64,000 nucleotides of DNA. Source: Longibaculum muris. Its GTDB lineage: Bacteria; Bacillota_I; Bacilli_A; Erysipelotrichales; Coprobacillaceae. Of this stretch, positions 12,552 to 40,000 are shown piece by piece (the stretch's first letter is position 1; each line of letters opens with the position of its first letter). Below the pieces are notes generated by a model. It was given only the letters and a program-made list of their open reading frames with translations. It was not told where the DNA came from and did not search any database. The translations under genes and the position numbers were made by a program. The DNA lies in NCBI RefSeq assembly GCF_004343035.1, contig NZ_SMCQ01000004.1, positions 62,001 to 126,000 of the forward strand, in the 5' to 3' direction.

Positions 12552-12560
12552 AATGCCTCC

Positions 12561-13343
12561 TTAATAAAGTCCCCACTCGGCAAACTTCTCAAAGCCACCG
12601 ATGGAACGAATAAACTCTCTTGCTTCTTCCACAATTTCCTTATATGGAATACCATCAACAGCATCATCACCAATGGCACATACAAGTTCTACTGGCTTGC
12701 CAGTTCTCTGTGCCTTAAGGAATGCGTGGATATTTACAGAAACATCTGCCTTGGATAAGTCCTTGCCATGAAGACCACCGCCTGTTACGGAGTCTGCCAT
12801 ATCAGAACCAAGCTTACGATTAGTTGCCCCAGTATCTACATCCGTGCCACCAGTCCAGTCACCCAGGGGATTGATTTCTGCTGCAGGGCAGATTTCCTTT
12901 AAGTGTACTTTTTTCGCATTGCTCTGGCAGATGATGAGTCTTGCCTGATCAAGAATGTACTTTCCATCAAACGGATACACCCTATAGATGTCTCTTGCTA
13001 TCTGGGATAATGCTTTCTGCTCTTCAGTAAGTGGCATTCCCTTGAAGATACCATTGTCACCACAATGGATGCTTTCTTCCTGGTTCTTTGCAAGGTGTGT
13101 ATCCTGGGGAACTATCACAATATTTGCTCTGACATCTCCGGCAATTCTATGAATGGCTGCAGCGATGTCAAACTTATCAAGTTCAGCTGATGTTTCAATA
13201 ATTACATGAGCCTGCCCATGACCGATAAGCACCTCAACGGCAACCTTCGGATTTTCTTCTTTTGCATAAGCCAAATCAACAATGGCACCTGCTATTCTGT
13301 CAGCCACCTTATCAGGATGGCATGGATTTACTTTTTCAATCAT
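12561..13343 (-). CDS. Short S-adenosylmethionine synthetase-like protein
   Basis: A 260-residue protein; cellular MetK is about 380-400. It keeps NPCHPDKVADRIAGAIVDLA at the N terminus (HPDK at 9-12), GDNG (95-98) in place of the usual GDQG, and a GDWTGGTDVDTGATNRKLG block from 161. GGGLHGKDLSKAD follows at 188-200. The missing length comes from the central domain and C terminus. It is followed by two DNA methyltransferases, so it probably supplies or channels their methyl donor. Activity is not proven, given the changed GDQG. Confidence 0.85.
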   Translation of the reverse strand: MIEKVNPCHPDKVADRIAGAIVDLAYAKEENPKVAVEVLIGHGQAHVIIETSAELDKFDIAAAIHRIAGDVRANIVIVPQDTHLAKNQEESIHCGDNGIFKGMPLTEEQKALSQIARDIYRVYPFDGKYILDQARLIICQSNAKKVHLKEICPAAEINPLGDWTGGTDVDTGATNRKLGSDMADSVTGGGLHGKDLSKADVSVNIHAFLKAQRTGKPVELVCAIGDDAVDGIPYKEIVEEAREFIRSIGGFEKFAEWGLY

Positions 13344-14542: not shown

Positions 14543-14943
14543 CTTTCAAAGTTTTCTATTGCTCTGTTATGAATTCGCTGTGTCCACCTTAATGTGTAAT
14601 GCACCTTTGTTGCTATCTGGTTCATTGGCATAAACATCAGGTATCTGTAACGAAGGATAAGCTGTTCATACGGGTCTTCCAGTTTATCGATTTCTGCATC
14701 GATTTCCTTCTTCATATCTTCAAGCTGTTCATAGTCAGCTTTTATCTCCTCTTCCAGATCACTGATTTTGCCAAGATATCTTACAAAGGGAGGTTCAAGA
14801 TTTCTTGTTCCTGAAAACTTCTCTTCAAAGCTTGGGGAAGAAACACTTGTTGATAATTCCTTATAGCATTCCAGCTTGATAAGCTTATCGTTAATCTTGT
14901 TATTTAGAATGAACGGTCTGTTCAGATAATCTTTAGCCGTCAT
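14521..14943 (-). CDS. DUF1492/ArpU-like late transcription regulator
   Basis: A 140-residue protein: a coiled-coil middle (ISDLEEEIKADYEQLEDMKK) followed by a sigma-region-4-like helix-turn-helix (EQLILRYRYLMFMPMNQIA, then YTLRWTQRIHNRAIENFERV). This is the layout of DUF1492/RinA/ArpU regulators that switch on late genes in Gram-positive phages. The ATG at 14943 has GGAGGTGG upstream and overlaps the SNF2 stop. The last codons overlap the TGAACT iterons, so the gene carries its probable binding site at its own end. Confidence 0.82.
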   Translation of the reverse strand: MTAKDYLNRPFILNNKINDKLIKLECYKELSTSVSSPSFEEKFSGTRNLEPPFVRYLGKISDLEEEIKADYEQLEDMKKEIDAEIDKLEDPYEQLILRYRYLMFMPMNQIATKVHYTLRWTQRIHNRAIENFERVHPSSP

Positions 14944-16294
14944 AAGCACCACCTCCGATTCTCGCCTTAACCGCATCGATAAGATCTGTCTGTGTTTTCT
15001 CTTTGAGCCTTAATGCATTCATCACATCTTCATCAATGGTATCCTTTGAAATAATGTGATGTATGACAACCGTGGATTTCTGCCCCTGTCTCCATAACCT
15101 TGCATTGGTCTGCTGATAGAGTTCCAATGACCAGGTAAGACCGAACCATATAAGGGTCGAACCACCACTTTGCAAATTCAAGCCGTGTCCGGCACTCGCA
15201 GGGTGGATTACAGCAATCGGTATCTCGCCATTATTCCAATCCCTGATATCCTTTGAAGTCTTGATTTCACGGATCTTGAATCTTTCCTTGATTCGCTCCA
15301 GATCGTGGTTATACCAGTAAGCTACAAGTACAGGCTTGCCATTTGCACCTTCAATCAAGTCCTCAAGTGCATCAAGCTTACGGTCATGAATATGAAAGAC
15401 CTCTTTTTCTTCGTTATAGATAGCACCATTGGCCATCTGCAGAAGTTTGCCTGAAAGAGCAGCTGCATTTGCAGCATCAATCTCTTCATCTTCTAAAGAC
15501 ACAACCATTTCCTGCCTTAATTCGTCATATACAGACCATTCCTTTTCTGAAAGCTTTACTTCCACTTCGTTCATAATGCATTCAGGCATTTTAAGGAAAT
15601 CTGCTGACTTCATAGAAATCGTTATATCCGATATCAGTCTGTAGATAGCATCTTCCGCACCTGGTCTTGGTTTGTAGGAAAATATCATCTGTTGATTTCG
15701 TTTATCCGGCACAAAGAAATTCATACGATAATGTGTGATGTATCTTCCGAGCCTTTCTCCCATGTCAAGGATTCTGAACTCTGCCCATAAATCCATAAGT
15801 CCATTACTGCTTGGAGTTCCTGTAAGACCCACGATTCTTTTTACCTTTGGTCTTACTTTAAGAAGGCTCTTGAATCGTTTAGCCGATGCAGACTTGAATG
15901 ACGATAATTCATCAATGACAACCATATCAAAATCGAATGGAAAGCCACTTTTGTTGATAAGCCAGTCCACATTTTCTCTATTGATCAGGTAGATTCCTGC
16001 ACTTTTTCTTAGTGCCTCTTTTCGCTCCGACTCTGTACCTATGACCACCGAATAGGTCAGTCTCTTTAAGTGATCCCACTTTTCTATTTCAGCAGGCCAT
16101 GTATCTCTTGCTACTCGAAGAGGTGCGATAACCAGAACCTTTCCAACTTCAAATCTGTTATAGAGAAGTTCAAATATTGCCGTTAAGGTAATCACACTCT
16201 TTCCGAGTCCCATTTCTAAAAGGACTGCTGCCACGGGACGTTCCAATACAAAGTTTGTTGCATAAGTCTGATAATCATGAGGATTGTATTTCAT
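14933..16294 (-). CDS. Phage SNF2-family helicase
   Basis: A 453-residue SF2 ATPase. Motif I is LLEMGLGKSV (about 24-33), motif II VVIDELSS, motif III LTGTPSSNG, and the C-terminal RecA domain ends with QTNARLWRQGQKS (motif VI). Such SNF2-like proteins sit in the replication module of many clostridial phages, next to a VRR-NUC nuclease and primase, and probably remodel replication forks or recombination intermediates. The start at the ATG at 16294 follows a GGGGG stretch; a TTG five codons upstream is possible. Confidence 0.9.
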   Translation of the reverse strand: MKYNPHDYQTYATNFVLERPVAAVLLEMGLGKSVITLTAIFELLYNRFEVGKVLVIAPLRVARDTWPAEIEKWDHLKRLTYSVVIGTESERKEALRKSAGIYLINRENVDWLINKSGFPFDFDMVVIDELSSFKSASAKRFKSLLKVRPKVKRIVGLTGTPSSNGLMDLWAEFRILDMGERLGRYITHYRMNFFVPDKRNQQMIFSYKPRPGAEDAIYRLISDITISMKSADFLKMPECIMNEVEVKLSEKEWSVYDELRQEMVVSLEDEEIDAANAAALSGKLLQMANGAIYNEEKEVFHIHDRKLDALEDLIEGANGKPVLVAYWYNHDLERIKERFKIREIKTSKDIRDWNNGEIPIAVIHPASAGHGLNLQSGGSTLIWFGLTWSLELYQQTNARLWRQGQKSTVVIHHIISKDTIDEDVMNALRLKEKTQTDLIDAVKARIGGGAYDG

Positions 16295-16556
16295 CAATGA
16301 CACCCCCAATCACATCAGTGTTATCAACCACATAGCAGGGAAACCCTAAAGCTGATAACTGTTTCATTCTTCTTTTCTGTAAGGCTCTTGGTTTCTTGCC
16401 AGGAGCCTTGAGTTCTATAAAAGCCATTCTCCCTTTTGGAAGAAGAACCAGTCTATCCGGCACTCCGTCAAATCCGGGAGATGTAAATTTAATGCAGAAA
16501 CCACCTGCAAGCTTTACAGCCTTTACAAGCTTCTGCTCTACTTCTTTTTCACGCAT
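16275..16556 (-). CDS. VRR-NUC domain nuclease
   Basis: A 93-residue stand-alone VRR-NUC protein of the PD-(D/E)XK superfamily: the KEVEQKLVKAVKLAGG helix, GVPDRLVLLPKGRMAFIELK with the catalytic D, E and K, and then RALQKRRMKQL. Family members cut branched DNA structures. It overlaps the SNF2 gene start, which suggests the two act together in recombination or replication. The ATG at 16556 follows GGAGGTGG. Confidence 0.92.
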   Translation of the reverse strand: MREKEVEQKLVKAVKLAGGFCIKFTSPGFDGVPDRLVLLPKGRMAFIELKAPGKKPRALQKRRMKQLSALGFPCYVVDNTDVIGGVIDEIQSS

Positions 16557-16584
16557 TCGTGCCACCTCCATCAATGCTGAATTT

Positions 16585-16695
16585 GATGGTGTGACAGGGT
16601 AAGACTGTCATTTCCTATACTTTATATATATAGACTTAATTTTTTTACTCTATAGAAAAGGATAGTAAATAGCCGTCATTAACTGTCACACCTAC
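16585..16695. repeat. Palindromic intergenic element, copy 2
   Basis: The second copy of the element at 1500-1600. The ends pair as GGTGTGACAG on both strands, near 16587 and 16692. The 30 bases at 16650-16679 are identical to 1556-1585. It lies between the primase stop and the nuclease gene, again directly after a gene end. No open frame or promoter is evident. Confidence 0.75.
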
Positions 16696-16700
16696 TGTCA

Positions 16701-18956
16701 TTACTCTTCTTCCATAAAGTCCGTCTTGAGTCTTAAGCCTTTAATGTATCTGCCCTTACGGTCACGGTATCTTTCAAATCCGACTGTTTCCAAGGCTGTG
16801 TAGAAATCTGTTGTACTTCTTGTAAACTCACCCACCTGGGTACAGAAGATTCGATACTCGTTATATACCTCGCTCGACTTTGCCACATAGGCAGGGTCAA
16901 GTTCGCAGCGTTCACTTAAGAAGTAGGAAAGCCAATCATTACTTTCCTTATAATGCTCAATGGCATCACGCACCTTCTGTGGCGGGTCAATCTTGTAGTT
17001 GTCTGCGATTACCTTTCTTGCACCTTCGATTACCCATGTAAGGATTGCTCCACCTGCCTTTTCAAACAGATAGTCCGCATAGTTCTTGATATCAGCACTT
17101 CCTTCAATCTTGGCATCAAACGGAATAACGATAAGTCTTCTCCATGTACCCTTATCAATCGCACCGACCTTTGGCAGATGGTTGGTATAAAGTACAAGTG
17201 TATGTGTCGGAGTATATGAGAACGGATCTTTATACTTCTTTTCAGCATAGATTTCATCGGTAGAGCAAAGCTGTTTAACATTGGCAGTATTCAGTCTCAT
17301 GCCTTCTTCCAGCTCTGCTGCAATGAGCATTCTCTTACCCTTTGCCTCGGCAAGTTCCGGCTTGACATTTCTTCTGCATCCAACGGTAAGCATATCTGCA
17401 GAGATGTTTCCTGAGTATGTACCAAGAACTCTTGCGATAACATTCCAGAAGGTTGACTTACCATTGCGGCCTTCTCCATATGCGATAATGAGTGCCTCAA
17501 CATACACCTTGCCGATTGCTGAAAGACCAACCATTCTCTGAACATAATCGATAAGGTCGGTATCCTTTAAAAAGAAGGTATCAAGTGCGGCTGCCCAGAT
17601 ATCTGCTCCATCACTTGATGGGTCAACGGTTGTCTGCTTTGTGATGAAATGCTCTGGTCTGTGTTCCATCGGAAACTTGGTGCCCTGTCTTAAATCATAG
17701 GTAAGAGTCGGTGTGTTCAGCATGAACTCATCAGCATCAAGGTTTCTCTGTTCTACTTCAAGCATCGGACGAGCCTCTTTTAATGTGGCAGCAATATTCT
17801 TTGTATCTCTTCGCTTAATGGCATATTTCTTATATGCCACAGCATCTTCATACATCTCGTAGGCATGAGCCTGCTGTTTATTGAACATCTGCACTGCCTT
17901 CTTCGGACCCACGGATACAAGAATCTCCATACCGCCATTCTTTACAAGTTCATCCATAGCTTTCTTCATTTCGGTTTCAGCCTCTGCAAGCTGTCTTTCT
18001 GTCAAATCCTGGGAAACCCCCTGGGACTTTGGTTTTGACTCTTCCCAGAAACTGCCGTTGTAAACCATGTAATCAGTCGATGGGGAATAGCGAAGGATGT
18101 CCTTATACTCGGTTGCAAGAACCGTAGCTTGCCCCACATCGGAGAAGTCTTCCGGCTTTAATCTGCAGTCAGAGTTGTACTGTTCAGGTGGAATGTATCC
18201 TTCCTGGTTCGACACCTTGTTACCGAACTTTGATGCACTTCTCCATATCACCTTGAGTTCACTTTCAGGAAGTGGTGGATTACAGAGTTCTGCCTTCTTA
18301 AGGAAGATCTGATAAGCCTCTTCTGTATTTCCGTATCTCTTGATAATCTTCCCGGCAATGTGGCTCATGGTACTGTTACGCTGACCTTCCGGCACCTGCT
18401 CAAGGCTTGCATCGAAATCTGAAAAATCATCCTCTTCCAGATAATCAAGAATGGTCTTGTCACCTTCATAGAACTCCACTTCATCAGAGTCATTGCCATA
18501 AAGGAATCTTGCAGAGTCTAATGCGTTGGTATCGTAATAAGGGAAAGCATCAGCTATCTTGCGTTTCATGGCTGCATACTCTTCTCCGTCCGTTACCTTT
18601 GGTATAGGGAAGAATACATGAAATCTTGGTCTTGCCGATTTATCACCCTTTGGAAGGTTGTGGTGTCTGCTGTAAGATGCAGCGAAAACAACTCCCGGAA
18701 TTGATAATGCGATATCAAAAGGAGCAAGCCAGTCATCCGGGTTCTCTGAATGGTCATTGTCACAGTCAAGAGGAATACAGTCGGAGGATTCAAAGTTATC
18801 CTTACTGCGATAGTTTCCTTTATACTTTGCAGTGACATGATCCATCTTGGTTGCTGCGATAAAGGACTCTTTATCCGTTACAACATTCTTATTGGGATAC
18901 AGACAGTTACCGCTGTTGCCGACACAGTCTGCTGAATAAACAGTAAAATTAATCAT
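16701..18956 (-). CDS. Phage primase-helicase (AEP primase, PriCT, SF3 helicase)
   Basis: A 751-residue replication protein. The N-terminal AEP-type primase shows IPLDCDND (about 63-70) and RPRFHVFFP. A PriCT-like region follows (GQRNSTMSHIAGKIIKRYGN). The D5-like/SF3 helicase has Walker A AYGEGRNGKST (about 495-505), a Walker B-like MLIAAELEEG and an arginine motif in GTWRRLIVIPFD. It would prime and unwind DNA at the phage origin. The start has GGAGG and overlaps the DUF4406 stop. The end is marked by palindromic element copy 2. Confidence 0.93.
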   Translation of the reverse strand: MINFTVYSADCVGNSGNCLYPNKNVVTDKESFIAATKMDHVTAKYKGNYRSKDNFESSDCIPLDCDNDHSENPDDWLAPFDIALSIPGVVFAASYSRHHNLPKGDKSARPRFHVFFPIPKVTDGEEYAAMKRKIADAFPYYDTNALDSARFLYGNDSDEVEFYEGDKTILDYLEEDDFSDFDASLEQVPEGQRNSTMSHIAGKIIKRYGNTEEAYQIFLKKAELCNPPLPESELKVIWRSASKFGNKVSNQEGYIPPEQYNSDCRLKPEDFSDVGQATVLATEYKDILRYSPSTDYMVYNGSFWEESKPKSQGVSQDLTERQLAEAETEMKKAMDELVKNGGMEILVSVGPKKAVQMFNKQQAHAYEMYEDAVAYKKYAIKRRDTKNIAATLKEARPMLEVEQRNLDADEFMLNTPTLTYDLRQGTKFPMEHRPEHFITKQTTVDPSSDGADIWAAALDTFFLKDTDLIDYVQRMVGLSAIGKVYVEALIIAYGEGRNGKSTFWNVIARVLGTYSGNISADMLTVGCRRNVKPELAEAKGKRMLIAAELEEGMRLNTANVKQLCSTDEIYAEKKYKDPFSYTPTHTLVLYTNHLPKVGAIDKGTWRRLIVIPFDAKIEGSADIKNYADYLFEKAGGAILTWVIEGARKVIADNYKIDPPQKVRDAIEHYKESNDWLSYFLSERCELDPAYVAKSSEVYNEYRIFCTQVGEFTRSTTDFYTALETVGFERYRDRKGRYIKGLRLKTDFMEEE

Positions 18957-19389
18957 ATTCTCCGACCTCCTTCAAATCCTGGGTAAACCATCTGATCTTC
19001 ATTCTTCTTTTCTTGGCAACACCAATCTCACGAGCCATGCCACGGCTTATCACACCACCGAAGACCCAGACCTCTGTGCATTTGCCAAGAAGTACATAAT
19101 TGAAATGCATAGCCATCTCTCTTTCAGCCTCATTACCGTCATCCATGAACTGCGGATATAAAAGATGAGGTGTTACCGGGATAGCATTTTCATCAACAGC
19201 GAATCTGCTGTATCGTTTTGCATTCTTTACATTGGTTTCAACATCACCTGCATATGGACTGCACACATACACCAAAGGAAGATAGGCAGCCTTTTTATCA
19301 GCTGCCATTTCCTCACGGTGGATGTTGGTAAGAGCCTCATATGTGGTCGGGTCAAAGTACCCTTCGTGATTAAACTTATCAACACCCAT
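18949..19389 (-). CDS. DUF4406 (nucleoside deoxyribosyltransferase-like) protein
   Basis: A 146-residue protein with VYVCSPYAGDVETNVKNAKRY, then PVTPHLLYPQFMDDGNEAER and EVWVFGGVISRGMAREIGVA. This is the Rossmann-like fold of DUF4406, related to nucleoside 2-deoxyribosyltransferases. Phage members may act on nucleotides, but no reaction is established. It sits between the antirepressor and primase genes and overlaps the primase start by eight bases. GGAGG precedes the ATG. Confidence 0.82.
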   Translation of the reverse strand: MGVDKFNHEGYFDPTTYEALTNIHREEMAADKKAAYLPLVYVCSPYAGDVETNVKNAKRYSRFAVDENAIPVTPHLLYPQFMDDGNEAEREMAMHFNYVLLGKCTEVWVFGGVISRGMAREIGVAKKRRMKIRWFTQDLKEVGEYD

Positions 19390-19394
19390 ATCTC

Positions 19395-20162
19395 TTAATC
19401 CTCCTGTTCGATAACTGGTAAGATGCCTTCACTCTTCAAAAGGTCATAAAGGAAAAGTCTGCCCTTCTGAGTCCAGTAGGTATGCATCACACTTCTGCTC
19501 TCATCGATTGCATAGGTACGGGACTGTGTGTATCCACACTCTGCATAGTGCTGATATAAAAGCCAGGTCTTTCTGAACTTGTACTGAACCCCAAGTTCGT
19601 GAAGAAGTTCATTGAACTTGCGACCGCTCATACCGTAATCCTTTGCAATCTGTGTAATAGGTACTGTGTTCTTGTTCTGTAAAATAAGGTCATAGTAGCT
19701 TGCCTTAGGCTGAAGTTCTGCAATCTGCTGACGCTGAACAAGTGCCAGACATTCAAGCTGCTTTCTTCTCTCACGCTCTTCCTTAAGCTGTGTGAGTGCT
19801 GCAATCGCAAGATCAGGATTTTCCAAGATCTCATCGATGGCATACATTCCATGCTTACGGATAGCCGGAAGAACTTCTGATGTAACCCAGTGCTTGAACT
19901 TCTTCGCATTCGGCATCTTGCTTGAAAGGATAAGACTGTAAAGTCCAGACTCATTGATGATGATGGTTTCCTTATCCTGGTTTCCATCAAAAATCATGAC
20001 CTTGTGTCTGTCCTCTTCCTCTACATGGCGGTTGATATCTCGACTACCGTTCTGGTACCCGAGAATGTCTGCTACATCCTTGCCGACAAACATAACCTCA
20101 CCGTTTACAGTTGCTGTTCTTACAGAGCCAAACTCTGTGCTGTTAAATACTTGTAATTCCAT
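19395..20162 (-). CDS. Phage antirepressor (BRO-N and KilAC domains)
   Basis: A 255-residue DNA-binding protein. The BRO-N domain covers about 1-110 (VFVGKDVADILGY-like segment, then SGLYSLILSSKMPNAKKFKHW). A linker helix (LKEERERRKQLECLA) leads to a KilAC domain with ITQIAKDYGMSGRKFNELLHELG. Such proteins relieve repression during the lytic switch or after damage. GGAGG precedes the start, and a GC-rich hairpin lies in the leader. Confidence 0.93.
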   Translation of the reverse strand: MELQVFNSTEFGSVRTATVNGEVMFVGKDVADILGYQNGSRDINRHVEEEDRHKVMIFDGNQDKETIIINESGLYSLILSSKMPNAKKFKHWVTSEVLPAIRKHGMYAIDEILENPDLAIAALTQLKEERERRKQLECLALVQRQQIAELQPKASYYDLILQNKNTVPITQIAKDYGMSGRKFNELLHELGVQYKFRKTWLLYQHYAECGYTQSRTYAIDESRSVMHTYWTQKGRLFLYDLLKSEGILPVIEQED

Positions 20163-20190
20163 ACGAATTACCTCCTTAAATTAATTTCTC

Positions 20191-20206
20191 GGAGGTGTCA
20201 CCCTCC
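20191..20206 (-). promoter_or_regulatory. Hairpin in antirepressor leader
   Basis: GGAGG and CCTCC (20191-20195 with 20202-20206) pair around a TGTCAC loop, just upstream of the antirepressor ribosome site. On the minus strand it is preceded by CTACCAGGTAG. It may tune translation; nothing proves this. Confidence 0.4.
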
Positions 20207-20230
20207 TACCTGGTAGCCTTGGGAGAAGGG

Positions 20231-20746
20231 TTAAAAGGACGTTTTTGAAAAAACTTTTTTTAATTTGTTGATAGCACGTCTGTAACGATGGCTGACAGTG
20301 TTGGCATCCTCACCGATTTCTGCTGCGTACTCACCAACGGTGTAACCATCAAGTGCAATTGCAATGACCATATCTGCCACTGCAGGCTTAAGAAGACTTC
20401 TCAAAGTTTCACAGCAATCTTCGTATTCAAGCTGGTTATGTACTCCATCAATTGAACTGTTAAAGGCTGACTTATCAGCTGCTCTGTACATGATTGCTTC
20501 TTCGGTGTTGACCTCAACTGTTCCGTCCTTGCTCTTCATATAAGCATTGCCAGTATGACGGTCATGCTTGTGCCAGCTGTTGTAATCGGGTCTGTTGAAT
20601 CTCTCTTCGATTACATCCTGGATTCTCTGTTCGTAGTCTTCCTGGCTTTCATTTTCTGAAATGGAGATATTAAGCCATCTCTCCAATTCCACGTTTTCGA
20701 CCTCAAGGGTCTGGTACTCGTTCTCGTAACGAATCTTGATTTTCAT
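20231..20746 (-). CDS. Sigma-70 region-4-like phage regulator
   Basis: A 171-residue protein. The N-terminal half is acidic and not recognised. The C-terminal 55 residues resemble sigma region 4: LKPAVADMVIAIALDGYTV, EYAAEIGEDANTVSHRYRRA, INKLKKVF. It is the first gene of the minus-strand early operon, behind a long structured leader. It may regulate early genes, including its own promoter with GGTAG iterons. A weak AGGA precedes the ATG. Confidence 0.72.
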   Translation of the reverse strand: MKIKIRYENEYQTLEVENVELERWLNISISENESQEDYEQRIQDVIEERFNRPDYNSWHKHDRHTGNAYMKSKDGTVEVNTEEAIMYRAADKSAFNSSIDGVHNQLEYEDCCETLRSLLKPAVADMVIAIALDGYTVGEYAAEIGEDANTVSHRYRRAINKLKKVFSKTSF

Positions 20747-21260: not shown

Positions 21261-22208
21261 ATGGAATTCACAGAATTTGCACAAAAAATAAAACCCATCA
21301 TCGGTGGTTCATACAGCACTCATGTCTTTACCAGAACACTGTTTGAATCAATCATCACCGAAGAAGGGTTATTACAAATTGAAGATATAAGTGAAAACAC
21401 TTTTAAGGCCTATTACAACGGTCAAACCAAAATAACGAAAATTTCTCAACGTATTTTGCCTCACATAGATCCAGAACAATTTATCGCATATTTGGATGGT
21501 TTCCCAGAAGCTACAACGCAAAGACTGTGCGACACATTTGAGTCTGATATCGAGGGGATTGACCTATATAATGCAGCTGAGAAAATTGCATATTATTTTG
21601 AAAAAATTCTTACAACAGCTGCCACACAAAAAAGAAAAAGCACTCCTAAGAGTGCTGATAAAACCCCACATGATATTCTTGAAGAAAAGATACTGGCATC
21701 TGGACAGGCAGTAGCCGATGCGTGGGGTAACGCAGTAAGCAACCTGGTAAATGGATTAGATGGAAACGATAATGCCGGAATAACAAGTGTTCAGCTTCCA
21801 GAAGAACAGCCAAATGAATCCCTCTATTCTTCTGAAGACAATTTACTGCTTGAAGAATTCACAGCAGATTATGACGAAATCATGGTTATTCTCATTGGAG
21901 AAAACTATGCTGCGTCATTAATCGACATGACTCTGCCATGTAAAATAAAAGACTTGTATGAAACCAAATGGATGTCAAAAGCAGATACATTTGCTGATCC
22001 ATCTTTAAAATCATATGTTTTTGGTTTGCTTGGCGAATTAAACAATATAAGTAGCAGCTTTTTAGTCAGTGGCTCTGCAACTCCTTTTTTAGGAAGTTCC
22101 AGAACCAAAATACGCAATTTGTATGTAAAGCTTCATCCCGACCAGTTTGCTGGGACATTTCCGTATGATGCATTTATCGATGATTGGGATGATGGAGAAT
22201 ATTATTAA
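21261..22208 (+). CDS. Unrecognised accessory protein paired with SF1 helicase
   Basis: A 315-residue protein I cannot assign. The N-terminal 125 residues (MEFTEFAQKIKPIIGG, then IEDISENTFKAYYNGQTKI) look like a compact helical domain; I believe similar N termini occur in clostridial mobile elements. A lysine-rich linker (KRKSTPKSADK) and an acidic middle follow. The C-terminal 110 residues, from LLLEEFTADYDEIMVILIG, form a second domain. There is no transmembrane segment or nuclease motif. GAGGTGG precedes the ATG. The helicase gene starts 18 bases later, so the two probably work together. Confidence 0.7.
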   Translation: MEFTEFAQKIKPIIGGSYSTHVFTRTLFESIITEEGLLQIEDISENTFKAYYNGQTKITKISQRILPHIDPEQFIAYLDGFPEATTQRLCDTFESDIEGIDLYNAAEKIAYYFEKILTTAATQKRKSTPKSADKTPHDILEEKILASGQAVADAWGNAVSNLVNGLDGNDNAGITSVQLPEEQPNESLYSSEDNLLLEEFTADYDEIMVILIGENYAASLIDMTLPCKIKDLYETKWMSKADTFADPSLKSYVFGLLGELNNISSSFLVSGSATPFLGSSRTKIRNLYVKLHPDQFAGTFPYDAFIDDWDDGEYY

Positions 22209-22226
22209 TCGGAAAGGAGGATGTTG

Positions 22227-25025
22227 ATGCCATCGATTGATGAATCCATCCGTAAAATAGACAACGTCATATGTAGGCATTTAGATGAAATAGAAAACAA
22301 TTCTCGTGGTGCTATTTCTCAAGACATTTTAGAGCAGCTGACAAAGTTCGTAAATCATGTCATGCTCAAGTTTTATGCCAACGGGAGAGAAATACCTATC
22401 ACTGCCGAAAACATAGCAAAGGCCACAGAGTTTGCACAGATAAGCAGTGAACTGTACACTTTATATAAATTCCATAATTACCTGGAAGTAGTCACCACAC
22501 AATATACATTGGATGAAGACGGCTCCGAACGACTAATGCTTAAGTATTACCAGTACCTGTTAGAAGCGAAGAATCTTATCTGGCACTACTTTGGTATTGA
22601 GGTACTACATAATTTAGATAAGTTCCCTCTTCATCTAGATGATACCTTACAGGAATACTATAAAAAGATTTCTGAAAAAATAGAACGATATCCAGTGGAA
22701 TTCCATACCGACAGCAAAGACAAATACTATATTCAGAAAATCAAACCGCTGTTTGTAAACAGAAGAATATATTATGAAATCACATTTACACCTGTAGATG
22801 ATAGAAAAAACAAATCCAAGTCTAACAGAGTAATTGCTTTTACTAAACTTCCAATTAAAAGCAATTACGCATCAAAGTTTCATCTCGTACATGAAACTAT
22901 CGAGATATTAGGAAAAACAATGCCTATCATCATTATTGACGGCTGGGAGGTATCCATTCGTGACTGTGAATTTCAAAATTTTATTAAACTGATAAAAGGA
23001 GAGAAAAAAAGAGTACCATATCCAGAGCAACGCTTAATCTGTGAGTTCCTTACTAGAACAAAGTACACTTTGACTGCCATAATGGACTTCCCGGATAAAG
23101 CATATGATAGGCTTACTCTTGAATGGAAAAACAACCTTAAATCTACGGTGTTTATTCCTATTTTAGATTACTGCAGAGAACTTATTCGAAATGGTCGTAA
23201 TGGAAAGAATGTGCTGCGATACCTTCTCTATAACATGAACAATGTTATTATTAAAGGTCAATATTCAGACGGATACTATAGCAAATACTATGAAGAATGG
23301 ATACACGCCGGAAACAGTTATCTTTCTAATTTGTACTTATCAAACGGTTGCAGGCAGTTTGATTCTTTACCATTTAACAGATCTCCTGTTGGTCACAATC
23401 CAAAATTAGGTGCTGTTTTTGATTGTATTCCGTGTAAAGACAAACGCCCGGAATTGTTCGCAAGGTTTATAAGGAATAACACTGAAGGCAGAGGACAACT
23501 CTTTACTGATGTTGATGAACTAGGTAATTTTCCTGATTACCCAAGACTCATCGAACAGTATAACGACAGTCTTTATTCAGGGCACAGACCTGAAAGTGAT
23601 TTAATGCTTGAACATAATCAAGTATTTATAAACGATTACAAACTCGATACTTGCACTGTAATTGAAAAATTACAAGAGTTGTCAGAATCCGGTATCGAAA
23701 ATTACAGTGACGATGTTGAATTTTGGCTACTATTCGGCGATTACGAAATTGACTGCGATGAAAAGAAAGACATCATCACCCGTATATTTTCGGAATCAAA
23801 GGTTGGTGTGATATACGGTTCAGCAGGTGTAGGAAAATCTACGCTAATAAACCATGTTTCTCACTACTTAAATGATGATTCCAAACTATACCTTACACAA
23901 ACGAATCCTGCCAAAGAGAACTTGATGCGAAAGATCGATGCTGAAAATACTACTTTTTCAACAATTGAAAGTTTCAAACATCAAGGCTCTGCTTTTATGA
24001 AATATAAATTATTGGTTATCGATGAGTGTAGTACCGTAAGCAATAAAGATATGGTTGAGGTTCTTCAAAAGGCAAATTTTGAAATGCTTTTATTGGTTGG
24101 AGATACTTATCAGATTGACGCCATTCAATTTGGAAATTGGTTCTCGGTATTAAAAGCATTTTTACCAGAAAGTGCTGTATTTGAACTCACCCAGCCCCAT
24201 CGAACCAAGGATGAACGATTACTTGAACTGTGGGATAAGGTCAGACAGATGGATGATACTGCAAAAGAAGTCATCGAAAGAGAAAGCTACTCCTTAAAAG
24301 TAGATGAATCCCTTCTCTCTTCTCTTGAACCTGGAGAGGCTATCCTCTGCCTAAACTACGATGGTTTATATGGAATAAACAACATCAATAGATTCCTACA
24401 GGAAAGCAATCCTAATCCTGCTGTTCAATGGGACATTCAACAGTATAAAGTTGGAGACCCGATTCTCTTCCTTGATTCAGATAGGTTCTTCCCTGTCATA
24501 CACAATAATATGAAGGGAATAATCAAGGGAATAGAAATCTTAGACCCCGGCACTCATGAAGAACGCATTCAGTTTGATGTTGAGATACCTAAAGCAGTAG
24601 ATGAAAGTGATCTCAGGCGTATTAATCTCGAACTACTTGAATGTTGGGAAAGCGAAGGAAAATCGTTAGTTAGATTTTGTGTACACAAATTAAAGAGTGC
24701 TGACGAAGATGGAGATGAAAGTACCTCATTCACTGTTGTTCCATTCCAAATTGCTTATGCTGTATCAATACACAAAGCACAAGGTCTGGAATATGACTCT
24801 GTAAAAATAGTTATTACCGATGAGGTGGAAGAATTAGTAACTCACAATATCTTCTACACTGCTATCACAAGAGCCAGAGAAAAATTAAAAATCTACTGGA
24901 CTCCTGAAGTCGAGGAAAAGGTTATTAACCGAATCAGACCACGAGATATCAGTAAAGATGTCGAACTCTTGAAAAACTATCTCACAGAAAAACAGCAAGA
25001 AGAATCATTCGATTTTTGGTTGTAA
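22227..25025 (+). CDS. SF1 (RecD/UvrD-like) helicase with large novel N-terminal region
   Basis: A 932-residue protein (start ATG at 22227, six bases after AGGAGG). The C-terminal half is an SF1B-type helicase: Walker A YGSAGVGKSTL at about 530-540, Walker B LLVIDECSTVS, the motif III region LLLVGDTYQIDAIQ, motif VI-like IHKAQGLEYDSVKI and FYTAITRAREKLKI. The N-terminal 500 residues carry no motif I recognise, but include cysteine-containing DCIPCKDKRPELF and NGCRQFDSLPFNRSPVG segments. It lies in an operon with the 315-residue protein and the repair/restriction genes. A defence role is inference. Confidence 0.85.
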   Translation: MPSIDESIRKIDNVICRHLDEIENNSRGAISQDILEQLTKFVNHVMLKFYANGREIPITAENIAKATEFAQISSELYTLYKFHNYLEVVTTQYTLDEDGSERLMLKYYQYLLEAKNLIWHYFGIEVLHNLDKFPLHLDDTLQEYYKKISEKIERYPVEFHTDSKDKYYIQKIKPLFVNRRIYYEITFTPVDDRKNKSKSNRVIAFTKLPIKSNYASKFHLVHETIEILGKTMPIIIIDGWEVSIRDCEFQNFIKLIKGEKKRVPYPEQRLICEFLTRTKYTLTAIMDFPDKAYDRLTLEWKNNLKSTVFIPILDYCRELIRNGRNGKNVLRYLLYNMNNVIIKGQYSDGYYSKYYEEWIHAGNSYLSNLYLSNGCRQFDSLPFNRSPVGHNPKLGAVFDCIPCKDKRPELFARFIRNNTEGRGQLFTDVDELGNFPDYPRLIEQYNDSLYSGHRPESDLMLEHNQVFINDYKLDTCTVIEKLQELSESGIENYSDDVEFWLLFGDYEIDCDEKKDIITRIFSESKVGVIYGSAGVGKSTLINHVSHYLNDDSKLYLTQTNPAKENLMRKIDAENTTFSTIESFKHQGSAFMKYKLLVIDECSTVSNKDMVEVLQKANFEMLLLVGDTYQIDAIQFGNWFSVLKAFLPESAVFELTQPHRTKDERLLELWDKVRQMDDTAKEVIERESYSLKVDESLLSSLEPGEAILCLNYDGLYGINNINRFLQESNPNPAVQWDIQQYKVGDPILFLDSDRFFPVIHNNMKGIIKGIEILDPGTHEERIQFDVEIPKAVDESDLRRINLELLECWESEGKSLVRFCVHKLKSADEDGDESTSFTVVPFQIAYAVSIHKAQGLEYDSVKIVITDEVEELVTHNIFYTAITRAREKLKIYWTPEVEEKVINRIRPRDISKDVELLKNYLTEKQQEESFDFWL

Positions 25026-25041
25026 AACAAGGAGGTTGATT

Positions 25042-25245
25042 ATGCGAATCAGTTACAACAAATTATGGAAGATGTTGATTGACAAAGAAATGAACAGAAA
25101 TGACCTTAAGGAGGCTGCCGGAATCAGTGCAGCTTCCATTGCCAAACTTGGCAAGGGTGCAAACATCACAACTGATGTTCTTCTCAAAATCTGTGAGGCT
25201 ATGGATTGTAAGTTGGAAGACATCATGGAAACAATAAAGGATTGA
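25042..25245 (+). CDS. Small XRE-family HTH regulator
   Basis: A 67-residue protein that is almost entirely one Cro/C1-type helix-turn-helix: NDLKEAAGISAASIAKLGKG, then TTDVLLKICEAMDCKLEDIM. Small proteins of this type in restriction-modification loci often act as controller proteins that delay endonuclease expression. The ATG at 25042 follows GGAGG at six bases, which I prefer to the TTG at 25036. It lies in the accessory operon, between helicase and Nudix genes. Confidence 0.85.
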   Translation: MRISYNKLWKMLIDKEMNRNDLKEAAGISAASIAKLGKGANITTDVLLKICEAMDCKLEDIMETIKD

Positions 25246-25255
25246 GGTGGAACGG

Positions 25256-25711
25256 ATGAATCGTAAAACCCCGGTCGAACTCACGAATATGTGTATGATT
25301 TATGATGACCAAGGAAATGTACTTGTCGAAGAAAAGCTTGTACATAACTCCAAAGGATTAATTTTCCCAGGCGGTCACGTAGAAAGCAACGAATCGGTAG
25401 CTGAGTCTATGATTCGAGAGATCAAAGAGGAAACAGGACTCACGATTAGTAATCTTCAGTTCTGTGGCATCAAAGATTGGATTGAATTAGATGGTTCTCG
25501 TTACATGGTTTTCCTTTATAAAACCAGCACATATTCTGGCAGCATTCAATCCTCATCAGAGGGAGAAATATTCTGGATGCCACTTAAAGAATTAAAAGCA
25601 AAGGAAACCCTATGGCATTTAGATATGATGCTAGAGATTTTTGAAGGCAATGGAGTAACAGAATTATATTTCAATCGAAATCTCAATACTCCTAACCCAG
25701 AACTAAAATAG
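25256..25711 (+). CDS. Nudix hydrolase (MutT-like)
   Basis: A 151-residue Nudix protein. The Nudix box is GGHVESNESVAESMIREIKE followed by ETGL (about residues 38-60), with all the metal-binding glutamates present. Proteins of this size are often 8-oxo-dGTP diphosphatases, but specificity cannot be read from the sequence. The ATG at 25256 sits after GAGGTG. The next gene is a DNA glycosylase nine bases downstream, so a nucleotide-sanitation plus base-excision pair is plausible. Confidence 0.88.
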   Translation: MNRKTPVELTNMCMIYDDQGNVLVEEKLVHNSKGLIFPGGHVESNESVAESMIREIKEETGLTISNLQFCGIKDWIELDGSRYMVFLYKTSTYSGSIQSSSEGEIFWMPLKELKAKETLWHLDMMLEIFEGNGVTELYFNRNLNTPNPELK

Positions 25712-25719
25712 GAGGTTCT

Positions 25720-26367
25720 ATGTCGACAATAGTATTAGACGAAACATCTCCAGCCATACAGCACTTATGCAAGAAAGATAAACGCCTAGCAAAAGTCATT
25801 AAAATGGTCGGACCCATCACTTATGAAGTAGAATCCAAGAACCCGTATGCTTTTTTAGTTCATGAGATCATAGAACAAATGCTCTCTGTTAAAGCTGGAG
25901 CAAAGATTTACGGTCGACTAAAAGATTTGTGCAATGGAGAAGTTCTTCCTGAAAAAATTGCTCAGTTGACCAATGAACAAATAAAAAGTATTGGCACTTC
26001 TTCTTCCAAAGTTTCTTTTATTCGTTCTCTAACCGACAAAGTAATATCTGGAGAACTCAATTTAGAAACTTTTGAACACCTCGATGACGAAGAAGTGTAT
26101 AAAAAACTATTATCCTTACGAGGAATTGGAAGTTGGACAGCAAAAATGTATCTGATATTCGTATTGGATAGGCAGGACATACTTCCCTATGAAGATGTCG
26201 CATTTCTACAATCATATGAATGGATATACAAAACTAAAGATAGGTCAAAAGAATCTATCACCAAAAGATGTAAAAAATGGAAACCTTACTCTTCTATCGC
26301 ATCGAGATACTTATATCGTGCATTAGATATGGGATTTACCAAAAGCGAGTTCCATTTATACAAATAA
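25720..26367 (+). CDS. HhH-GPD DNA glycosylase (AlkA/Ogg-like)
   Basis: A 215-residue base-excision glycosylase. The helix-hairpin-helix is KLLSLRGIGSWTAKMYLIF (about 129-147), and the likely catalytic aspartate is D159 in LPYEDVAFL, matching the AlkA pattern. There is no cysteine cluster for an Fe-S centre, so it is not a Nth/MutY-type enzyme. GGAGG precedes the start. Its position between a Nudix hydrolase and a cytosine-5 restriction-modification pair suggests repair of oxidised, alkylated or deaminated bases. The substrate is unknown. Confidence 0.85.
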   Translation: MSTIVLDETSPAIQHLCKKDKRLAKVIKMVGPITYEVESKNPYAFLVHEIIEQMLSVKAGAKIYGRLKDLCNGEVLPEKIAQLTNEQIKSIGTSSSKVSFIRSLTDKVISGELNLETFEHLDDEEVYKKLLSLRGIGSWTAKMYLIFVLDRQDILPYEDVAFLQSYEWIYKTKDRSKESITKRCKKWKPYSSIASRYLYRALDMGFTKSEFHLYK

Positions 26368-26449
26368 TAAACAACACATAATAGCTGTACGTTTTTTGGT
26401 ACATCAAAGATGATACAGTTAAATAAGTAAAGATTAAAGGAGAATAATT

Positions 26450-27214
26450 ATGGCTTATTTATCATTTATTTCAGACGAGGATTTATTGCAGTGTATTGCT
26501 GAATTACACAATACTTACGAACAGTGTCAGAGAGCCTTTACTACCGCTGACTTTTACAAGAATAAAGTTGATCCCATTAAATTCCAGTTTGATATGGCTT
26601 TCAATGGTATCAATGATAATGACTACATTAAAGCAGAGATTACACGTCAGGTTGATAAAACAATTTCAAATGCAATCGGTGACTTCCATCAAAGATTATT
26701 AGGCTGTATTGATGGCCTCAATGATTTAGGTGTTGGTAACGGTTGTGATTTGGTGAATGACCAAAAGACAATTTTTGCCGGACTGAAAAACAAACACAAT
26801 ACCATGAACAGCAGCTCTTCGGAAGCTACAATTCAGAAGTTGATTCATTTTGCTGAAGAATATCCAAATGCTACTTGTTATTGGATTCAGATTATTGCCA
26901 AAAGAAGCATTGATGAATTATGGGAAGGATCTTTCAACGGTAAGCACTATGCTCATCCTAGAGTAAGAAAAATCTCCGCAGATAGATTTTATGCATTAGT
27001 TACTGGTATTCCAGATGCGTTTTATCATCTGTGTGCCGTTCTTCCTCAGGCTACAAAGGATTATCTCGATAGCCTAAACAACAACTCACAAGGAAAAACT
27101 GAGTCTGCGTCAGTTTATTCTGAATTAAATACAAAGGCTCAACAAAACGGTAAAACTCTAATCGAGCAGATTATGGCTGACAACTTTGAAACCTATACGG
27201 GATTTAATCAGTAA
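26450..27214 (+). CDS. Type II restriction endonuclease, Eco47II family (likely GGNCC)
   Basis: A 254-residue protein. The opening YLSFISDEDLL, the KNKVDPIKFQFDMAFNGI segment, AIGDFHQRLLGCIDG, LKNKHNTMNSSSSEATIQ and the KISADRFYALVTG motif are what I know from Eco47II/Sau96I-type endonucleases, which cut GGNCC. In family members I recall, the PD-(D/E)XK core reads AE-x-KNK; here it is IFAGLKNK, with glycine (codon 111, GGA at 26780-26782) where glutamate is expected. The enzyme may therefore be inactive. A cytosine methyltransferase follows. GGAG precedes the ATG. Confidence 0.85.
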   Translation: MAYLSFISDEDLLQCIAELHNTYEQCQRAFTTADFYKNKVDPIKFQFDMAFNGINDNDYIKAEITRQVDKTISNAIGDFHQRLLGCIDGLNDLGVGNGCDLVNDQKTIFAGLKNKHNTMNSSSSEATIQKLIHFAEEYPNATCYWIQIIAKRSIDELWEGSFNGKHYAHPRVRKISADRFYALVTGIPDAFYHLCAVLPQATKDYLDSLNNNSQGKTESASVYSELNTKAQQNGKTLIEQIMADNFETYTGFNQ

Positions 27215-27218
27215 TGAC

Positions 27219-27247
27219 TTGACTTTATGAAAATTAAGAGTGATATA
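27219..27247 (+). promoter_or_regulatory. Promoter of the restriction-modification methyltransferase
   Basis: -35 TTGACT at 27219-27224, a 17-base spacer, -10 GATATA at 27242-27247. The 14 bases AGAGTGATATATAG are identical to those in the prophage promoter at 8329-8357. It begins a few bases after the endonuclease stop, so methylase can be made on its own. Confidence 0.75.
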
Positions 27248-27296
27248 TAGAAATACCGTTTTAGGATACTACGATAAGAAATGGAGGTAGCCTTAT

Positions 27297-28304
27297 ATGG
27301 CTTTTAAATCAATTGAACTGTTTGCTGGTGCCGGAGGTTTAGCCCTTGGACTAGAGCAAGCTGGTTTTGAACATATCGGTCTTGTTGAATTCGATCGTTC
27401 TGCAGCTGATACCCTTATTCATAATCGTCCATCATGGAACGTTTTATGTGAGGATGTAGAGATTGTTGCTGCACGAGACCTTGAAACAGAATTCGGCATA
27501 AAAAAGGGAGAACTTGACCTGTTAAGCGGCGGAGCGCCTTGCCAATCTTTCAGTTATGCGGGTAAAAGATTAGGACTCGATGATGTTCGAGGAACAATGT
27601 TCTATCACTATGCTACTTTTTTACATAAGTTGCAGCCAAAAATGTTTTTATTTGAAAATGTTAGAGGCTTGTTAACCCACGATAAAGGTCGCACATATGA
27701 AACGATTCGAAATATCTTCAACGATGAAGGTTATACAATTCAATATCAAGTTCTTAACGCATGGGATTATGGTGTTCCTCAAAAAAGAGAACGATTGATT
27801 ACTATTGGAATCAGAAATGACTTAGTAGAAAAATGCTCTTTCAACTATCCAGCTAAACACGATTATAAACCTTTGCTAAAAGATATCGAGTTAGAAACAA
27901 ATCCTACCGAATGTGGCAAATATTCTGAATACAAAGCAAATATATTTGCCTTAGTTCCTCCGGGTGGATACTGGAGGGATATCGACCCTGATATTGCAAA
28001 AGAGTATATGAAAACTTGCTGGTTCATGGGTGGTGGAAGAACTGGAATACTTAGAAGGTTAAGTCTTGAAGAACCTTCACTAACCGTATTAACAACCCCT
28101 CAAATGAAACAAACTGATAGATGTCATCCTTTGGAGGTTAGACCTTTCAGCGTTAGAGAAAATGCACGTATACAGACCTTCCCAGACGATTGGGAATTTC
28201 AGGGAACAATCGGTGCTAAATATCGACAGGTAGGAAATGCAGTTCCTTGTAATTTAGCAAAAGAAATCGGATTGGAATGTATTAAGACTTTAGAAATGTT
28301 ATAA
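27297..28304 (+). CDS. DNA cytosine-5 methyltransferase of the restriction-modification pair
   Basis: A 335-residue C5 methyltransferase: motif I ELFAGAGGLALGLE (7-20), motif IV GGAPCQSFS with C82, motif VI FENVRG (119-124), motif VIII PQKRER (161-166), motif IX near RPFSVRENARIQTFPDDW and motif X YRQVGNAVPCNLAKEIG. The target region is short, as in single-specificity enzymes. By linkage with the Eco47II-like nuclease it should methylate GGNCC. All catalytic motifs look intact. It has its own promoter and GGAGG. Confidence 0.95.
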   Translation: MAFKSIELFAGAGGLALGLEQAGFEHIGLVEFDRSAADTLIHNRPSWNVLCEDVEIVAARDLETEFGIKKGELDLLSGGAPCQSFSYAGKRLGLDDVRGTMFYHYATFLHKLQPKMFLFENVRGLLTHDKGRTYETIRNIFNDEGYTIQYQVLNAWDYGVPQKRERLITIGIRNDLVEKCSFNYPAKHDYKPLLKDIELETNPTECGKYSEYKANIFALVPPGGYWRDIDPDIAKEYMKTCWFMGGGRTGILRRLSLEEPSLTVLTTPQMKQTDRCHPLEVRPFSVRENARIQTFPDDWEFQGTIGAKYRQVGNAVPCNLAKEIGLECIKTLEML

Positions 28305-28369: not shown

Positions 28370-28834
28370 TCATGCTTTACATATCATGCTGCTATCTATA
28401 AATTCGTATTCATGCGTCACTACAAAACCATCCGCATCTAATTTCTCTTCTAAATAATCAAGCAATTCTGTGTTTTCTATATAGTAATACATTTGCGGAA
28501 CTACAAATTTACTCAAATCAGCTCTAAGCTGTTCCAAATCTATGGAGTTAGTTCTTTCAAATTTGTTTATTTCCATTGCATAATTATGATGCGACAAATA
28601 TTCGTTGATTCGCTTTACGCACTCCGCGTCATCTTTATATTGTTCTTTCCACTTAAGTAAGGATGTTCTATTACTTAGATACATAATTCCACAGATAGCC
28701 TTTGTTGGAGCACTGACATAAATATAAGCCTTTACAGGTTCATCCGGGAATACCTTACGATGCTCATATATCTTTTCTCCTGATAACACTTTACGATAAA
28801 CATCGTCCCTTAAACTCATTAACATTGTTCGCAT
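28370..28834 (-). CDS. ASCH-domain (PUA-like) protein
   Basis: A 154-residue protein with an N-terminal ASCH-like domain: LMSLRDDVYRKVLSGEKIYE with EHRKVFP, then AYIYVSAPTKAICGIMYL. ASCH domains bind RNA or modified bases. The C-terminal half is helical and unassigned. I prefer the ATG at 28834, eight bases after AGGTG, to the ATG at 28852. It is convergent with the methyltransferase and is the last gene before the element end in rlmD. PUA/ASCH-like proteins can recognise modified bases, so a link to DNA modification is possible but speculative. Confidence 0.7.
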   Translation of the reverse strand: MRTMLMSLRDDVYRKVLSGEKIYEHRKVFPDEPVKAYIYVSAPTKAICGIMYLSNRTSLLKWKEQYKDDAECVKRINEYLSHHNYAMEINKFERTNSIDLEQLRADLSKFVVPQMYYYIENTELLDYLEEKLDADGFVVTHEYEFIDSSMICKA

Positions 28835-28852
28835 TTCCTTATCACCTACCAT

Positions 28853-29005: not shown

Positions 29006-30136
29006 CTATCCATTATGTACTTTAGTCAACAGCACCACGCACTCAACATGTCCGGTGTGTGGAAACATATCATACAAATAAACATCACTTGCTTGATAGC
29101 CAATTTCCTTGAACCATTTCAAATCTCTCGCCTGAGTTGTAGGATCACATGAAACATACACAACTTTCTTAGGTTGAAGAACTTTTACACTATGAATAAA
29201 TTCTTTGGTACTTCCAGCACGTGGTGGATCCATAATAATACTGTCGACACTTTGATGTTTGTTTGCCATTTGAATCATAAATTCTGTAGCATCATCATTG
29301 ATAAAACGAACATTATCAATATGATTCATTTTCGCATTATTTAAAGCATCTTTATATGCATCTTTATTTAATTCAACTCCTATAACCTCTTGACACTTAT
29401 CAGCCACACTCATACCAATTGTTCCAATTCCACAATATGTATCCAAGATAATTTCATCTTTTTGTGAATTTAACAACTCTTTTACCTTAGCATAAAGTTT
29501 AACACATTGTTCATGATTGATTTGATAAAAAGAACGTGCTGATATTTTAAAAGTTAAACCACATAGTTCATCAACAATAAAACCCTTTCCATACAGAACT
29601 TTTTCATTATCTGATAAAACAACACTTGTTTGTCTTTTATTAACATTTAAAACAATACTTTTCACAGTTGGACAGGCTTTGACTAACTCTTGACAAAAAT
29701 TTTTAGAGCCTTTAAACATTCCATCCGTAGCAACCAAAACAACTAATGTTTGATTTGTTGAAACAGCCCTTCTGATTAGCACATGTTTCATAAAACCTCT
29801 ATTTTTCTTTTCATCATAAATAGACATTCTATATTTTCTAAATAACGATTGGATTTTAGATAAAATCTTATGTGTTTCTTCGTCATGTAACAAACACTTT
29901 TGAGTTGGAACGATTTTATGACTTGATTCTTCGTATAATCCATATTCGTATTTCTGATTAAAAGCAACTATAACTTTATTTCTATATTCATATGGATGGT
30001 CCATTCCCTCAACTGAATGAACATTCAAATGCGGAAATAGTTTCTGACATTCTTCTTGTTTTTTTACAAGTTGTTGATGATAATCCATATTGATATATTG
30101 ACAACTTCCACAACGTTTACTTATATCACATTTCAT
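29006..30136 (-). CDS. rlmD: 23S rRNA (uracil-5-)-methyltransferase RlmD/RumA-like
   Basis: A 376-residue enzyme. The N terminus MKCDISKRCGSCQYINMDYH holds cysteines for an Fe-S cluster. The SAM site is ILDTYCGIGTIG, the substrate loop is IIMDPPRAGS and the catalytic cysteine is in VYVSCDPTTQARDLKW. It methylates a uridine of 23S rRNA. The ATG at 30136 follows AAAGGAG. The last 15 or so codons (from HTGHVECVVLL) are richer in GC than the rest, as if replaced by the incoming element. A c-di-GMP-I riboswitch lies in the leader. Confidence 0.92.
   Translation of the reverse strand: MKCDISKRCGSCQYINMDYHQQLVKKQEECQKLFPHLNVHSVEGMDHPYEYRNKVIVAFNQKYEYGLYEESSHKIVPTQKCLLHDEETHKILSKIQSLFRKYRMSIYDEKKNRGFMKHVLIRRAVSTNQTLVVLVATDGMFKGSKNFCQELVKACPTVKSIVLNVNKRQTSVVLSDNEKVLYGKGFIVDELCGLTFKISARSFYQINHEQCVKLYAKVKELLNSQKDEIILDTYCGIGTIGMSVADKCQEVIGVELNKDAYKDALNNAKMNHIDNVRFINDDATEFMIQMANKHQSVDSIIMDPPRAGSTKEFIHSVKVLQPKKVVYVSCDPTTQARDLKWFKEIGYQASDVYLYDMFPHTGHVECVVLLTKVHNG
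29020..29065. other. Putative attachment site (element-host junction)
   Basis: The 3' coding end of rlmD, specifying HTGHVECVVLLT, is locally GC-rich between AT-rich host coding and element DNA. In streptococci and related Bacillota, integrative elements and phages insert at this conserved 3' end of rumA. I infer the crossover lies here. The second copy would be at the left end, outside the window. Confidence 0.6.
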
Positions 30137-30161
30137 AAAAAAATCTCCTTTCAAATGAGAA

Positions 30162-30187
30162 AAGGTAAAAGCAAATGCTTTTACCTT
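30162..30187 (-). terminator. Terminator-like hairpin before rlmD
   Basis: AAGGTAAAAGC, loop of four, GCTTTTACCTT: an 11-pair perfect stem. On the minus strand it is followed by TTCTC, giving a short T-rich run just before the rlmD ribosome site. It is a candidate expression platform for the riboswitch upstream. Confidence 0.65.
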
Positions 30188-30299
30188 ACTTTCATACACA
30201 TGACAGAAAGGGATTTGTCAATACATGAATATCAATATATTCGGTATGAAAGCTCATATGTAAATGAACATGTAAAACATGCTGACTCCAATAAAAAAG

Positions 30300-30373
30300 A
30301 TTGGCAACTGGCTGTCTTATCTTACGACTTAGACCCTATAGCTTTGCGTCACTATTTTTCAATAGTTTAGCCA
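30300..30373 (-). promoter_or_regulatory. Cyclic di-GMP-I (GEMM-I) riboswitch aptamer
   Basis: On the minus strand the sequence reads GGCTAAAC, a six-pair stem ACTATT/AATAGT closed by GAAA, then GACGCAAAGC, TATAGGGTCTAAG, a variable stem, and GACAGCCAGTTGCC. These are the conserved core, tetraloop and tetraloop-receptor features of class I c-di-GMP aptamers. A minus-strand TATAAT sits just upstream (30396-30391). The downstream gene is rlmD, with a terminator-like hairpin about 110 bases after the aptamer. A possible 21-codon open frame in between is not supported by a ribosome site. Confidence 0.88.
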
Positions 30374-30390
30374 TTTACATATCTGTTTAT

Positions 30391-39734: not shown

Positions 39735-40000
39735 TAGCATAAAACAAAAAACACCTGTCCTATCAAAGGACAGATGTAATAATCTGCGGTACCACCTTTA
39801 TTGGTTACAATGAACCCACTCTGTAAAATGCTAACACATTTTTGCTTTATAACGTAAGCTCACGTCGCAGGATACTCGTTACCTTTCCCCTTTGCCCTCG
39901 TAGGTCCATTTACTTAACTGCCACTATCTAGCTTCCACCACCCTAGACTCTCTAAAAGTACATCTTTAAGTTTTATCTCCTACTCATTGGTTTGTTGTAT
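39735..40000 (-). promoter_or_regulatory. T-box leader, tryptophan specifier (UGG)
   Basis: On the minus strand the leader has the T-box core GGTGGTACCGCAGATT (around 39784-39798), followed by a terminator stem with ACATCTGTCC and GGACAGGTGT around 39742-39776, then six T. Stem I starts with AGAGAGTCTAGG, and the probable specifier is TGG followed by A at 39908-39906. It would sense uncharged tRNA-Trp and turn on the transporter operon when tryptophan is low. Confidence 0.92.

Follow-up and report, generated by a model that had tools for sequence, protein, structure and literature searches.

The prophage block at 21261-28304 of the window (the whole 64,000-nucleotide stretch of Longibaculum muris DNA analysed here) is made up of a constant two-gene core, usually with a small HTH gene, and an exchangeable cargo, carried at one rlmD site by one phage lineage. 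The core encodes a 315-residue protein, P1, and a large helicase, HEL, and this pair is the interesting part of the block; the restriction pair that follows is an ordinary, standard type II system. A sequence-only reading had taken all seven genes for one unnamed defence system. Such a system is ruled out because the cargo varies across loci: only P1 and HEL, most often accompanied by the HTH gene, stay the same, and the other four genes are exchanged. HEL, moreover, is already listed by PADLOC as the defence candidate PDC-S53. The search against PADLOC likewise recognised the last two genes as type II restriction, and P1 as LmuA only in part.

Layout and prophage setting

Seven plus-strand genes, as listed among the open reading frames, fill positions 21261-28304 with successive gaps of 12, 10, 1, 8, 82 and 82 nt. 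P1 (21261-22208) lies directly 5′ of HEL, as it does in all the examined loci that have P1. HEL (22221-25025, 934 aa) is an SF1B helicase matching AAA_30/UvrD_C_2. These are succeeded by XRE (25036-25245), a small HTH_26 protein of 69 aa; NUD (25247-25711), a Nudix hydrolase of 154 aa (PF00293); GLY (25720-26367), an AlkA/OGG-like HhH-GPD DNA glycosylase of 215 aa (PF00730); REase (26450-27214), a type II endonuclease of 254 aa (PF09553 RE_Eco47II, E 2e-76); and MTase (27297-28304), a C5 cytosine DNA methyltransferase of 335 aa (PF00145, E 2e-81). The block lies on the strand opposite to the phage early genes (14933-20746, minus strand; SNF2 helicase, VRR-NUC-like, primase, antirepressor and sigma/ArpU-like). 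Its 3′ boundary is an unassigned minus-strand gene at the element end (28370-28852; PADLOC PDC-M11B, phrog_3136), beyond which lies the host gene holding the attachment site, an rlmD-type 23S rRNA uracil methyltransferase (29006-30199, minus strand). The sequence-only reading had thus placed the block correctly, with its tight spacing, between oppositely oriented early genes and the element end. Omega values of 0.02-0.28 show purifying selection on HEL, P1 and those cargo genes that could be tested (0.05-0.28 for P1 and HEL alone), and therefore the open reading frames of the block are real. Promoter and terminator scans returned sites no more numerous than in shuffled sequence. A c-di-GMP-I riboswitch upstream of host genes (30300-30382, minus strand) and a T-box leader (39763-39996, minus strand) are unrelated to the block.

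The prophages phi1605 and phiEr670 of Erysipelothrix integrate at rlmD, the known integration gene of their group, as does the window element; the same group carries antibiotic resistance genes (PMC12785378). The integration gene of m46.1 is rlmD under the name rum (PMC4260502). The window element also shares with the phi1605/phiEr670/m46.1 group the presence of serine recombinases at the far end of the prophage. This end lies outside the window, where three such ORFs, recognised from sequence, stand at the start of L032 and a partial one, recognised likewise, at the end of L031. No long direct att repeat was found (longest chance match, 14 nt), which is expected with serine recombinases. In L047, and likewise in four genome loci (cluster c25), the cargo is followed by an rlmD-like gene. 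The window prophage has a second restriction-like pair at its recombinase end, in which an HTH_26 gene comes after a GmrSD_N-domain gene (L031:17308-19262).

The early region at 9443-13343 has its own C5-type methyltransferase, together with genes for a SAM synthetase and for a ParB-DNA methylase (11274-12551). The streptococcal prophage phi1207.3, of a related phage group, likewise has ParB-methylase, C5 methylase and SAM synthetase genes, shares these and serine recombinases with the group of the window prophage, and carries a C5 restriction cassette, SpyI, as cargo (PMC4260502). SpyI uses an McrB-like AAA protein and an LlaJI-like subunit, unlike the window cassette, and the gene list consulted names neither P1 nor HEL (PMC4260502).

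Constant core and exchanged cargo

P1-HEL adjoins phage early genes in phi1605, TPDSL_ph1, 13 viral contigs and 20 bacterial loci, and in the phages and viral contigs the order is P1 then HEL, with the small HTH gene (XRE) usually third. The same P1-HEL-XRE core is found in phi1605, where an AlwI-like type IIS cassette replaces the Eco47II one. With the near-duplicates L058/L062 and L069/L070 counted once and short contigs omitted, 23 of 25 informative loci have some restriction or modification gene. The proposal that the prophage carries a cassette linked to restriction, probably for defence, holds up in this respect: the core is mostly found in the company of restriction genes, and most relatives have the block unbroken.

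The cargo of the core loci includes AlwI, SacI, SinI, Eco47II, MmeI, type I, Mrr, GmrSD and Vsr types, and C5 methyltransferases (18 altogether) occur in most loci. We find AlwI-type IIS genes in L034 and MmeI in L071, both assigned from family list, gene sizes and annotation combined, SinI in L060, type I in L069, Mrr-ResIII in L067, GmrSD in L049 and L066, and N4/N6 methyltransferases in L056 and L062; part of the labelling of neighbouring genes relies on custom profiles and on motif patterns. Two loci have no restriction or modification gene, L063 carrying an ABC exporter and L068 a RepA/ParB element.

A comparison with L047 is informative as to how these parts travel. Its GLY, REase, MTase and element-end gene are 90-98% identical to those of the window at the protein level (95% for the element-end gene, which accompanies the Eco47II cassette there and is 75% identical in TPDSL_ph1), with dS of 0.48, 0.33 and 0.37 for GLY, REase and MTase. 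Its core has diverged, HEL being 86% and P1 62% identical (dS 1.18 and 1.79), and XRE and NUD are absent. Because dS is low in the cassette of L047 beside the high dS of its core, the sequences indicate that cassette and core move independently. In L044, HEL is 97% identical to that of the window (dS 0.26), yet the C5 cassette is a different one.

XRE is probably part of the restriction cassette rather than of HEL, because XRE-family genes open restriction-modification operons in L072, L080, L093 and L131. NUD recurs in 7 other loci, each with a C5 methyltransferase, and GLY is intact beside such a gene in L035, L047, L064 and L140. One or other is present in about three quarters of the core loci with a C5 methyltransferase. 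Outside these we find only a GLY fragment beside an N4/N6 methyltransferase in L056 and GLY in L092, where the contig stops before the neighbour can be seen. In L050 a Vsr mismatch endonuclease occupies the NUD/GLY slot. This pattern would fit repair of deaminated 5-methylcytosine, a tentative suggestion given that the loci are related to each other and that the glycosylase is AlkA/OGG-like. REase scores 256.5 bits against PF09553, above the cut-off of 25.9, and is by homology a putative GGNCC cutter; the C5 methyltransferase adjoining it on the same strand, 82 nt away, is its putative cognate partner. Such adjacency on one strand of PF09553 and PF00145 genes is that of Eco47II-family type II systems, here additionally joined to Nudix, glycosylase, HTH, P1 and HEL genes.

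HEL, P1 and restriction genes

PDC-S53 matches HEL over nearly its full length (1224 bits, residues 3-924, profile positions 1-897 of 900). It is a listed single-gene phage defence candidate, and candidate only; in the window HEL stands beside P1 and a restriction cassette that can be exchanged. No published function or anti-phage activity for HEL or PDC-S53 was found in the literature searched. The sequence-only reading had called HEL an SF1 helicase; a helicase it is, more exactly of class SF1B (RecD/Pif1/Dda-like), with intact motifs at about 528-890, the Walker A residue being K539, preceded by some 520 residues of no known family. The C-terminal motifs are common to RecD2, Dda and Pif1, and the N-terminal half (1-526) is unrelated to them. 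HEL is not RecD2 (TIGR01448, 90.7 bits against an equivalog cut-off of 500), nor does it form a Gabija-like pair, being weakly GajB-like (25.5 bits) with no GajA in the block. The N-terminal half is conserved, 71 sequences being 37-97% identical to that of the window. Its model, a confident one (pLDDT 87.7, pTM 0.84), gave no significant whole-fold match among the solved or viral structures of PDB and BFVD. A local beta region gave weak matches to the OB folds of single-strand-binding proteins, and because of these we tentatively suggest that this half may bind single-stranded DNA. HEL is split into two ORFs in L049 (8346-11153) and L051 (10001-12819), through decay or sequencing error.

P1, described earlier as an unknown protein, has no Pfam match. 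Its residues 1-137 match the PADLOC LmuA model (PDLC03857) with E 2e-15 over positions 1-147 of 327. The remainder of LmuA is unmatched, and with no SMC-family LmuB among the seven genes, membership of Lamassu is ruled out. P1 combines a conserved C-terminal domain (about 187-313) with a variable N-terminal one (about 1-125), of which at least three forms occur; two of these forms match the N-terminal part of LmuA in PADLOC. AlphaFold predicts only helices, joined by an unordered linker, and a fold search of PDB with this model gave nothing significant. Among the best-scoring 80 of at least 487 HEL relatives, P1 is confined to the phage-associated branch; no convincing match to its C-terminal domain was seen in P1-less HEL loci, and among 295 genomes of the phylum its N-terminal domain is present in that of the window only. 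In L043 (8609-9988) and L064 (7050-8426) P1 contains an insertion of ~145 aa that resembles its C-terminal domain and may be a diverged duplicate of it. No nuclease motif was recognised in P1 or HEL, including the N-terminal half of the latter; no toxic domain was found in either, and no RNase domain was seen.

Outside the phage lineage, HEL is again linked to restriction genes. A scan of GTDB genomes returned at least 487 relatives, of which the best-scoring 80, a non-random sample, were analysed; they come from Bacillota, Bacteroidota, Proteobacteria, Patescibacteria, Elusimicrobia and others. Restriction-modification genes lie within 9 kb in 24 of the 60 P1-less loci (about 40%), and in 15 of these they share a directon with HEL; the other 36 have none in reach, some being short contigs and some truly lacking them. 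HEL and hsdS share 11 nt in L082; in L102 HEL sits between hsdR and hsdM, in L088 it starts 14 nt after hsdR, and in L112 it comes 37 nt after hsdS. In L131, within an hsd operon, it overlaps a GajA/OLD-like gene by 4 nt. A YgjP-like metallopeptidase lies between hsdR and HEL in L072 (7928-8626), and a member of the same cluster is near HEL in L125. As a control, none of 20 RecD2 loci from the same order, given the same treatment, had restriction-modification genes (Fisher p 4e-5 for all 80 loci and 4e-4 for the P1-less ones, treating phylogenetically non-independent loci). The RecD2 genes are chromosomal housekeeping rather than mobile genes, and general clustering of defence genes could still explain the difference. 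The positions of HEL within operons are the stronger argument.

Possible roles of the core

The likeliest reading, to which we give about an even chance, is that the block is an anti-phage cassette working on the side of lysogeny, in which HEL acts after cleavage as a general companion of restriction systems. REase would cut incoming unmethylated DNA and the C5 methyltransferase would shield that of the lysogen; XRE probably controls the cassette, and GLY and NUD probably limit mutagenic side effects of cytosine methylation. HEL would most likely load on the DNA ends or single strands made by restriction, possibly aided by P1 with its exchangeable recognition domain, and by unwinding or translocating along the DNA would help to finish off the cleaved foreign genome. 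Counting against such a companion are the P1-less loci without restriction genes, the two P1-HEL loci L063 and L068 that also lack them, and the limits of the control and of the sampling, together with the absence of a recognised nuclease motif and of whole-structure matches for HEL or P1.

Next in order, and rather unlikely, is that P1-HEL is a self-contained anti-phage system merely co-located with restriction in defence islands. The many HEL loci with no restriction genes within 9 kb would be accounted for, as would small plasmids carrying HEL with no such gene recognised, its single-gene status in PADLOC and its other defence-like neighbours (GajA/OLD-like, AbiU-like, PDC-S41). Against such a system stand the 23 of 25 core loci that have restriction genes, and the presence of HEL in the same operon as hsd genes in several unrelated lineages. 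We consider it improbable that P1-HEL is not defensive and instead guards the DNA of lysogen or phage against breaks from self-restriction, or helps the phage to replicate. The helicase domain is RecD2/Dda-like, and the repair-like GLY, Vsr and NUD occupy the same slot; however, P1-HEL opposes the lytic genes, occurs on plasmids and on chromosomes without the phage, and has every type of restriction gene among its associates.

Least probable of all is that HEL, with P1, guards restriction, normally silent and triggered by phage inhibition or persisting breaks to harm the cell or phage replication. PrrC acts as such a guard beside type I systems, and the place of HEL inside or at the end of hsd operons is reminiscent of prrC; a sensor of a shared outcome would fit its linkage to restriction types that differ in mechanism, and the N-terminal domain of P1 resembles that of the effector LmuA. 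However, no toxic domain was found in either protein, and most HEL copies associated with type I systems are without P1. The anticodon nucleases PrrC and RloC, also accessory genes of type I loci, are a different protein class.

If HEL is a companion of restriction, its reach may be wider than this prophage. Restriction is usually regarded as complete once the enzyme has cut. We put forward, with less confidence than the companion reading itself, that HEL may represent a widespread class of restriction-coupled helicases, as yet unrecognised in function, a shared second stage for type I, II, IIS, IIL and IV systems that would act on the DNA they produce or where restriction has failed, P1 being a phage-specific adaptor with an exchangeable recognition domain. 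The phage lineage swaps its restriction specificity like a cartridge beside a constant core. If the wider proposal is true, a helicase tied to several restriction types in several phyla would point to an overlooked, common post-cleavage or guard stage of restriction.
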